DNA from: Pseudomonadota bacterium
Lineage (GTDB): Bacteria > SZUA-182 > DTGQ01
Reading direction: 5' to 3'
Assembly: GCA_030625085.1 (NCBI GenBank)
Contig: DAOURK010000001.1
Location: 62,001 to 126,000 of the forward strand
DNA length: 64,000 nucleotides
Shown here: one piece after another, positions 62,101 to 64,000 of the stretch
How positions within the stretch are numbered: position 1 is the stretch's first letter
Layout of the letters: each line of letters begins with the position of its first letter
Made by a program: the position numbers and the translations under genes
The notes under the pieces: generated by a model
The model's database searches: none
The model's input: the letters and a program-made list of their open reading frames with translations, nothing else
What the model was told of the DNA's origin: nothing

Positions 62101-62440
62101 CAAAATTCTTAAAAAACTTCTTCAAATCTATTGGCGGGGAATGCAGATTCCTCTTCCATTTTTCCCGAAAACCTCCTTAGCCTATGCGGAAAAATTTTTG
62201 GATACAGGGGATGTATTAAAGGCCTTGTACTCAGCCGGAAAGTCCTGGGAAGGAAATGATTTCAGCATGGGTGAGGCTGAGGACCCCTATCTTCAGCTAT
62301 GCTTTGGCAAGGTTGAAAATCTTTTGGGTGAAGATTTCCAGGCCCTGGCCCTGGAAATCTTTGAACCCCTTTTGAGTTATCGCGAAAAGGTCCTCACGCT
62401 CAACAAGGGGAATTATACTTGGCAAGGCCATAAATTGTGA
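59117..62440 (+). CDS. recC: Exodeoxyribonuclease V gamma subunit RecC
   Basis: Subunit of the RecBCD helicase-nuclease that processes double-strand breaks and, in E. coli, reads the Chi site. The 1107 residues match full-length RecC. Family blocks include IIVVQSKGMERWISMKLAQ, NLAPMYMDVFASVARHLEV, HACHSPMREIEVLYDHLLD, DILVMTPDISKYAPYI, YSVADRS, VTFCTMLPMRSIPFRVVALV and DEDRYLF-like HEDRYLFLEALLSARE. The gene is GC-richer than its surroundings and looks intact. Its partner recB starts 243 nt downstream but is cut short, so RecC may have lost its function. Confidence 0.93.
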   Translation: MAGFRLFTSNRLEILFEYLAQVLEGPLPSPLDQEIIVVQSKGMERWISMKLAQKFGIWGNGRYPFPKAVIRELFKMVTPDIPDDDPFDPKALTWRIMKSLSFCTGKAGFEVLRKYLGDEANNLKRLQLAEQLAKIFDRYMVFRPEWIFAWEEGKEDHWQARLWRDLVGSAAAGHIAALRKVFLERVGQTTIDPEKFPARVSIFGISNLAPMYMDVFASVARHLEVNLFLMSPCREFWFDIVSEKEAAKIQKKIGRKKINGKALSSDELHLDTGHPLLASMGKQGAHFFQKVFDLFEQIPENLPHAEETRFEDPDRGGLLSCLQSDILNLRDRGSGEWEKKTITINDNSIQVHACHSPMREIEVLYDHLLDFFETNPDLEPGDILVMTPDISKYAPYIFSVFEGRREGEKKIPYSVADRSARREGQVVEVFLEILGLYGSRFGQTQILDVLESPAVRKRFGLQEQDLEPIRRWVESTRIRWGVDGKDRGRMGVPEFEENTWKAGLERLLLGYALPGKGERMFEGILPYDDIEGTEAQVLGHFLDFIQHLFDQMTSLEQRRSMSDWAVALQGLLERFFTSNESTEAELHVLQKLLGEFKDIEEKAGFEEKIEIEVVRSYLADRLDHQVDTLRAGFLTGGVTFCTMLPMRSIPFRVVALVGMNEEDFPRMVSAVGFDLMAQAPRVGDPSKRHEDRYLFLEALLSAREKLYISYVGQSIRDNSPIPPSVLVSELLDAIDRGFEHPTKKTLDYVVTYHRLQAFSPAYFNPRGSLFSYSEENCRALCARLKEPVQQKPFITEPLPEQSDEWKTLNLTQLIQFLANPARFFLSHQLGIRLEAPSSHLEEREPFDVLGLEKYQLEQELVQKKLQEVKLEDYYPLLKAQGVLPPGTSGEVTYQDLCTDVEDFAAKVQQHTAMEKLAPPDVDIDIDEFRLMGRIEGIWSGGLLRYRCASIKAKDYLAVWVEHLALNCLAQEGYPAMSLLIGSDYQYRFHPVPDSRKILKKLLQIYWRGMQIPLPFFPKTSLAYAEKFLDTGDVLKALYSAGKSWEGNDFSMGEAEDPYLQLCFGKVENLLGEDFQALALEIFEPLLSYREKVLTLNKGNYTWQGHKL

Positions 62441-62460
62441 TTATGAAAAAATGCTAGATA

Positions 62461-62573
62461 AACCACAGAGCACACAGAGGACACAGAGGGCAGTAATAAG
62501 ATTTAAAACTCTGTGCTCTCTGTGTTCTCTGTGGTGAGATTTGAAAAGCGTAATTTGTGCTCTCGCTGAGTAT
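62461..62573. repeat. CTCTGTG palindromic element, complete copy
   Basis: AACCACAGAGCACACAGAGG (62461-62480) is inverted in CTCTGTGTTCTCTGTGGTGA (about 62517-62536). It lies between recC and the recB stub. A CTATAG half element (ATCTGAAAATCTATAG) follows at about 62626-62641. Confidence 0.7.
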
Positions 62574-62683
62574 AGGTAGGGGAAAATGCCGGCCTAAAGT
62601 CCTGCGCCACGGGATGAAATTTACTATCTGAAAATCTATAGAGCATAAAGAAAATATGATTGTTGTTGGGAGTAAGCTAAAGA

Positions 62684-62824
62684 ATGAATGAGTTTGACTT
62701 GCTCAACAGCCCCTTAGAGGGGCGCAATCTGATCGAGGCAGGTGCCGGCACAGGCAAGACTTACACCATCGCCGGATTGTATATCCGACTGCTTTTGGAG
62801 AAGTGCTTGTCTGTTGACCTGTAA
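62684..62824 (+). pseudogene. recB: recB stub: N-terminal 46 codons ending at an insertion junction
   Basis: The frame starts MNEFDLLNSPLEGRNLIEAG and carries the RecB Walker A motif EAGAGTGKTYTIAGLY, then LLLEKCLSVDL and a stop. In RecB the text normally continues LSVDxILVVTFTEAA, so the break is within a few bases of 62818. The sequence after it is abruptly AT-rich and leads into a DNA methyltransferase gene. The rest of recB is not in the window; it may lie beyond the insertion or be lost. Confidence 0.85.
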
Positions 62825-63042
62825 AATAAATTAAGTATAAAGAATAAAATAATTTAATCTCTATTATGTTTTCAAGCAGCCTGACAATTATTTATTGTTG
62901 GGAAGGGAATATTGTGTCTTCTGTTAGATTAGTTTGTCTCCAGAAATCGACTTTTGCGATAAAAAATTCCTTTAGATTTTAAAAAAAATTAGGTATTATA
63001 AAGTATAAAAATGAATAATGGAGAAAATGAACTTAAATTAAA

Positions 63043-63987
63043 ATGGCTTTTAAAATAGGTGATCGAGATATGATTATTCCTCATCCTTTCCCATATCAGG
63101 GAAGTAAGAGAAACATCGCAAAATCAATACTTCGGTTTTTTCCAGATAGCTCTGAGGGACTTATTGAACCTTTTGCCGGATCATGTGCTGTATCTATTGC
63201 CGCTGCTTTTTTTAGTAAAGCGAAAACATTCATCTTAAATGATTCAAATATAGCTTTAATGTCTCTCTGGGACATGATAATTAAAAAACCAAGAGAATTG
63301 GCGACTCAATATAGAATACTTTGGATTGAACAACAAGGAAATGAAAGAAGTTATTATGATGCAATAAGGAAAGATTTTAATAAAAGTCATAACCCGGCTT
63401 TTTTATTGTATCTACTCGCTAGATGTGTCAAAGGATCTATAAGATACAATTCAAACGGTGAATTTAATCAAAGCCCGGATAATAGGCGTAAAGGAATGCA
63501 TCCAGATAAAATGGAAGCAAATATCTATAATGTCTCTGAACTTTTTACAGGTAAAATAAAACTTTTAAATTCTGATTATAAAGAAGCACTTAAATTAGCA
63601 TCATCAGAAGATATAGTATATATGGACCCGCCATACCAAGGGGTTTGTAATAAACGCGATCCTCGTTATATCAGTGGACTTACTTTTAGTAATTTTGTTA
63701 ATACCTTAAACGAACTTAATAATAGAAATATCTCCTTTATCTTAAGTTATGATGGGCGTACTGGGAACAAAACCTATGGGAAGCCGATGCCTAAATCTTT
63801 ATCTCTTCATAAAATAGAAATAAATGCAGGGCCCTCAACACAAGCAACACTTTTAGGAAAAAGAAGCTTAACTCATGAGGCACTATATCTGTCACCAGCA
63901 TTAATAGAACGGCTAAAGGATATTGAACCTCGTAAACTTATACATCAGCCAAGACAATTATCTCTTTTTGAATATGCTCAAGTATGA
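63043..63987 (+). CDS. N6-adenine DNA methyltransferase, D12 class (probable restriction-modification)
   Basis: A 314-residue (or 304 from ATG 63073) S-adenosylmethionine-dependent adenine methylase. Motif X PFPYQGSKRNIAKSIL, motif I LIEPFAGSCAVSIAA and catalytic motif IV YMDPPYQG are in the order of the alpha (Dam/D12) class. The C-terminal block (GPSTQATLLGKRSLTHEALYL-type) is longer than Dam and suggests a type II modification enzyme. The gene is AT-rich compared with recC. The stop overlaps the ATG of another gene by 4 nt, the usual coupling of methylase and endonuclease. Its recognition site cannot be read from the sequence. Confidence 0.9.
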   Translation: MAFKIGDRDMIIPHPFPYQGSKRNIAKSILRFFPDSSEGLIEPFAGSCAVSIAAAFFSKAKTFILNDSNIALMSLWDMIIKKPRELATQYRILWIEQQGNERSYYDAIRKDFNKSHNPAFLLYLLARCVKGSIRYNSNGEFNQSPDNRRKGMHPDKMEANIYNVSELFTGKIKLLNSDYKEALKLASSEDIVYMDPPYQGVCNKRDPRYISGLTFSNFVNTLNELNNRNISFILSYDGRTGNKTYGKPMPKSLSLHKIEINAGPSTQATLLGKRSLTHEALYLSPALIERLKDIEPRKLIHQPRQLSLFEYAQV

Positions 63988-64000
63988 CGACTCGACAAGA
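63984..64000 (+). CDS. First codons of a gene coupled to the methyltransferase (possible endonuclease), cut by window edge
   Basis: ATG at 63984 overlaps the methyltransferase TGA (ATGA) and the frame reads MTTRQ to the window edge. Too short to identify; a restriction endonuclease is expected from context only. Confidence 0.4.

Follow-up and report, generated by a model that had tools for sequence, protein, structure and literature searches.

Some integrative elements enter the end of a gene and restore that gene with a copy of their own. Restriction-modification (R-M) genes, in turn, are described as inserting with long and variable target duplications in comparisons of Helicobacter pylori genomes (Nobusato et al. 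2000, as described in PMC3031569 and PMC1643837). Such genes have also been linked to the repair nuclease RecBCD, in that the loss of an EcoRI or PaeR7 plasmid is reported to be more harmful to cells mutant in recBCD (PMC11324026).

Here we describe a bacterial genome in which a type II R-M operon lies between recC and recB. The H. pylori type of insertion is the closest known kind: in both cases a long direct repeat made of host sequence brackets an R-M operon (here 180 bp, 173 of them identical, on both sides of the insert) and the site is intact in relatives. The present locus differs in that the 5' end of recB serves as target, the gene is rebuilt, the insert also holds radical-SAM and glycosyltransferase remnants, and the intact site is seen in family members and more distant relatives rather than within the species. 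Like the elements that integrate at gene ends, this one leaves its target gene with a complete end; unlike them, it lacks an integrase as far as the insert is assembled, and its repeat is far longer than the usual attachment core. The R-M pair itself has counterparts that lie on small plasmids. Hymenobacter plasmid pHsw3 carries a Dam-family methylase (52% identical) beside an endonuclease of the same HNH family (49%) in the same gene order, and Aeromonas plasmid pWP2-W18-CRE-05_9 carries both (44% and 46%, respectively) as convergent genes.

Results

A complete recB and recD lie on a second contig

The window, that is the whole stretch of 64,000 nucleotides analysed, corresponds to positions 62001-126000 of contig C98 in a genome of 247 contigs; its features are listed in Table 1. 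The first-pass annotation had described a recB start next to an intact recC, followed by a drop in GC content and an adenine methylase, and all of these features are real. The recC in the window is 58% and 52% identical to the recB-adjacent recC of two genomes of the same family. From the arrangement it had been concluded that recB is interrupted and RecBCD disabled.

Table 1. Features at the recC-recB junction (window coordinates unless a contig is named)
Feature	Position	Strand	Evidence and remarks
recC, complete, 1107 aa	59117..62440	+	TIGR01450 991.6 bits vs cut-off 582.9
Dispersed palindromic repeat over last recC codons, CACAGAG-rich (ACCACAGAGCACACAGAG...CTCTGTGTTCTCTGTGGT)	62413..62574	.	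About ten copies elsewhere in genome, 80-91% identity over most of length
Right half of ~140-bp MITE-like repeat, abutting left edge of recB duplication	62583..62640	.	About 40 genome copies, all with same end point
Direct repeat copy 1: 44 bp recB leader, codons 1-45 and one base of codon 46	62640..62819	+	173/180 bases identical to C100:940-1119
Orphaned recB 5' fragment, 46-aa ORF	62684..62824	+	UvrD-helicase match, E 2.1e-7
Left part of insert	62820..64000	.	Continues on C98 to IS at C98:127562 (2742 bp); ends on C100:141-939 (799 bp)
Type II adenine-N6 DNA methyltransferase (Dam/D12 family), DPPY motif, 314 aa	63043..63987	+	Pfam MethyltransfD12 2.7e-36; PADLOC MTase_II PDLC03341 1.8e-77; TIGR00571 126.7 bits vs cut-off 114.85
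HNH restriction endonuclease, gene start (full gene C98:125984-126730, 248 aa)	63984..64000	+	PADLOC REase_II PDLC03566 1.5e-58; Pfam HNH 7.8e-7

A RecB family search of the genome returned, besides the 46-codon piece in the window, a second recB on contig C100 (C100:984-4643). It is full length (1219 aa), has no internal stop and scores 992 bits against TIGR00609 (cut-off 696.05). The next gene is a complete recD (TIGR01447, 563.1 bits, cut-off 310.15), so that looking beyond the 64-kb window, as the first-pass annotation had proposed, recovers both missing genes. The 5' end of recB is thus present twice in this genome, cut off beside recC and whole on C100. All three subunits of RecBCD (exodeoxyribonuclease V) are encoded at full length and above their family cut-offs. 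The genes do not form a contiguous recC-recB-recD operon, as the insert parts recC from recB and recD; this is no bar to RecBCD, since contiguity is not required by the enzyme and recC sits elsewhere in another genome (L069). RecBCD is probably made and intact rather than knocked out, and the claim that recB is knocked out in this genome is, as far as its sequence tells, wrong. Because complete recB and recD genes lie beyond the insert, the suggested selective advantage from disabling RecBCD has no basis here.

The C100 recB carries no stop codon, though the orphaned 5' copy had time to drift. On the assumption that recB had drifted freely at the rate of the orphaned copy since the insertion, between 2.0 and 6.5 stops would be expected against the zero seen (P 0.13-0.0015, depending on that assumption), which lends modest support to continued selection on recB.

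The 5' end of recB is duplicated on both sides of the insert

In a DNA search of the genome, the first repeat copy matched its counterpart on C100 at 96% identity (E 2.5e-79). Seven of the 180 bases differ, no two neighbouring differences being more than 64 bp apart, and unbroken identity extends over 63 bp at most. Five codons differ in the shared frame; only the change at codon 41, where the window copy has C for R, alters the residue. Judged against two family members, it is the window copy and not the C100 copy that has the derived base at codons 39, 41 and 42; at codon 20 both copies encode glycine where both family members have serine, and the shared glycine places the two copies in the same lineage. 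Small as these numbers are, the pattern fits a duplication after which the orphaned copy drifted. The window piece is, on this comparison, a duplicated and decaying 5' fragment of recB, while the downstream copy supplies the C100 recB with a complete 5' end, including the 44-bp leader.

The true length of the duplication lies somewhere between 180 and about 240 bp. The upper bound follows from the glycosyltransferase frame of the insert, which beyond its internal stop reaches to about C100:880. The left edge is hidden because a truncated MITE abuts it, and a search of the upstream flank for a longer duplication gave nothing above shuffled controls. Full copies of the MITE-like repeat, about 140 bp long and palindromic, run from CTATAGATTTTCA to TGAAAATCTATAG (CTATAGATTTTCA...TGAAAATCTATAG, for example in L084 and L086), and the target of insertion of this family is probably TA. 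The MITE and the neighbouring dispersed repeat appear to have replaced the original recC-recB spacer, and the duplication may therefore have been slightly longer than what is left of it. The exact meeting of the MITE end with the repeat edge was considered as a meaningful feature and rejected in favour of the simpler view that a truncated MITE and its neighbouring repeat replaced the sequence to the left.

The insert carries a type II R-M operon

GC content is 49% in recC and drops abruptly after position 62819, to 34% for the C98 part of the insert (33% for the C100 part); without the IS described below, the insert measures about 3.5 kb. The proposed translationally coupled partner of the methylase is the gene starting at 63984, which overlaps the methylase stop (ATGA) and encodes an HNH endonuclease that PADLOC assigns to one of its type II restriction enzyme families. 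A methyltransferase and an endonuclease of type II families (PDLC03341 and PDLC03566) thus lie side by side as a putatively active pair. The endonuclease family is rare, occurring in 5 of 193 genomes including this one. Wherever its neighbours can be read (in G095 and on the small Hymenobacter and Aeromonas plasmids) it adjoins the same methylase family; in G001 the contig begins just upstream of the endonuclease. This recurrence of the methylase-HNH pairing in unrelated genomes and on small plasmids supports a genuine mobile R-M unit. A search of phages and viral contigs found no member of the endonuclease family, and a search of solved structures with the endonuclease gave no match.

As to the boundaries of the element, for which the first-pass annotation had suggested looking for ends and a target duplication, a direct repeat of at least 180 bp is present, and the insert ends carry no inverted repeat above shuffled controls. 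Nor is there a pair of IS copies at the two ends of the R-M segment, as in a composite transposon, the sole IS found sitting inside the glycosyltransferase. No integrase of the kind that drives genomic islands occurs among the ORFs of the assembled insert, the interior of the IS being unassembled.

Downstream of the R-M pair, an N-terminal radical-SAM fragment (L021:4738-5259) runs into the start of a glycosyltransferase (L021:5175-5561) in overlapping frames (LANTLRSRGG / ISKYPPIQGG), a junction that looks as if it had been joined by deletion. On C100 the glycosyltransferase has an internal stop near its end.

A multicopy IS bridges the two contigs

C98 stops 1.7 kb past the window, inside an IS, and the second copy of the recB 5' end lies 0.94 kb into C100. 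The end of C98 is the left end of the IS (CAAAACTCAGTAAAT..) and the start of C100 is its right end, both with the same 6-bp target, GGGGGC; the inverted repeats of the IS are CAAAACTCAGTAAAT. The left end occurs on nine contig ends and the right end on eight, nearly all of which break 136-141 bp in, and this uniform depth of breakage marks a collapsed multicopy repeat. Other pairs of contig ends in the genome share flanks as well (GATAAAC, GCCTC). The IS ends at this locus are at L021:5562-5702 and L022:1-139, with 15 further contig ends carrying the same sequence; on C212 at least 734 bp are assembled from the left end of the IS, and an ORF cut by the end of that contig has a weak helix-turn-helix match.

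The IS splits the glycosyltransferase into an N-terminal half on C98 (Glyco_transf_4) and a C-terminal half on C100 (Glyco_trans_1_4). The halves join in frame at RHGG|SDL, and a single uninterrupted gene in another genome matches both (58% and 50%). The order recC, first repeat copy, methylase, endonuclease, radical-SAM fragment, glycosyltransferase with the IS, second repeat copy, recB and recD can be considered established to a good standard from the assembled sequence. No read or contig spans the IS, and we infer the adjacency of C98 and C100 in the cell from these shared ends and frames.

Relatives have an uninterrupted locus

In two genomes of the same family recC and recB are adjacent, with gaps of about 290 and 140 bp, and in one of them recD comes next; the recC-recB-recD order is also found in many named relatives. 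No R-M pair was present at the recBCD locus in 30 named relatives and three family members. A single recB without an insert is what the family members show, at only 55-59% identity. As the locus is contiguous in relatives and free of methylase and endonuclease, the segment between the repeats is an insert. The rest of recB, whose absence from all relatives would have spoken for old decay, occurs both here and in the relatives. In a Desulfobacterales chromosome (CP070694.1; L055:7570-10001), recC and recB are separated by about 2.4 kb holding several ORFs, one of them FHA-like.

Discussion

Taken together, these data very probably describe a single recCBD locus with an R-M insert flanked by a direct duplication of the recB 5' end, in which recB and recD are whole and a later IS split the assembly. 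An AT-rich segment, comprising the type II R-M operon, the radical-SAM fragment and the decayed glycosyltransferase, would have entered between recC and recB, leaving behind a direct repeat, at least 180 bp long, of the recB leader and the first 45 codons. The upstream copy beside recC would then have been cut off and left to drift, while the downstream copy would have given recB its complete 5' end, so that recC, recB and recD stayed full length. Later, a multicopy IS would have entered the glycosyltransferase, and, being a repeat, it split the assembly at that point. An origin of the duplication in the insertion itself (an insertion with long target duplication) would be the likelier course; the repeats differ by 4%, and the insert-free loci available for comparison are those of family members and more distant relatives.

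The reading in which the R-M insertion truly disrupted recB and RecBCD was lost is very unlikely, although the frame beside recC does stop after 46 codons and its logic is not absurd, given the greater harm that loss of EcoRI or PaeR7 plasmids does to recBCD mutants (PMC11324026). Against it stand, in the same genome and in the order of the relatives, full recB and recD genes, the former with its 5' end intact; three things speak against an origin of C100 in another organism, namely the match at 96%, the bridging IS and the frame of the glycosyltransferase. What stood of the original interpretation is the insertion itself, just inside the recB frame beside recC and carrying a type II R-M operon; the disabling of RecBCD did not. 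Nothing points to an assembly join at position 62818, which the first-pass annotation had named as a possible artefact. There is a small chance that the assembly, or a mixture of strains, misleads in another way, recC-recB being uninterrupted and the R-M segment forming a separate circle or locus with its own recB 5' piece, the assembler having crossed from one path to the other inside the 180-bp repeat. Such a pair of molecules is exactly what recombination between the two repeats, whose longest identical stretch is 63 bp, would yield; yet the seven differences are spaced closely enough (at most 64 bp) for ordinary reads to separate the copies, and the derived bases are found in the copy joined to the R-M segment, the ancestral ones in the copy joined to recB.

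A more substantial alternative, which we regard as possible though the less probable course, is that a circular R-M element already carrying a recB 5' fragment integrated by a single crossover of the Campbell type, with no target duplication. The resulting anatomy would be identical, the endonuclease family does occur beside Dam-type methylases on plasmids of 5.1 and 7.0 kb, and the 4% difference between the repeat copies could mean that one recB start is foreign. The assembled insert, however, holds no replication gene or integrase, the glycine that both copies share at codon 20 against the serine of both family members points to one lineage, and at the informative differences it is the orphaned copy that has the derived base, as decay after a duplication would produce.

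The finding is ordinary in kind and neat in place: an R-M insertion after which recB remained whole. It is conceivable, if improbable, that R-M modules may settle by recBCD in a way that keeps repair working, as RecBCD limits the damage done by their endonuclease, in which case the rebuilt recB start would have been selected rather than a matter of luck. The result corrects the tempting story of a selfish R-M module knocking out RecBCD, and illustrates how a fragmented assembly can make a gene-preserving insertion look like a gene disruption. The orphaned gene start dates the event relative to the intact copy, and the locus provides a probable further example, in a DNA-repair operon and outside Helicobacter, of R-M insertion with long target duplication.
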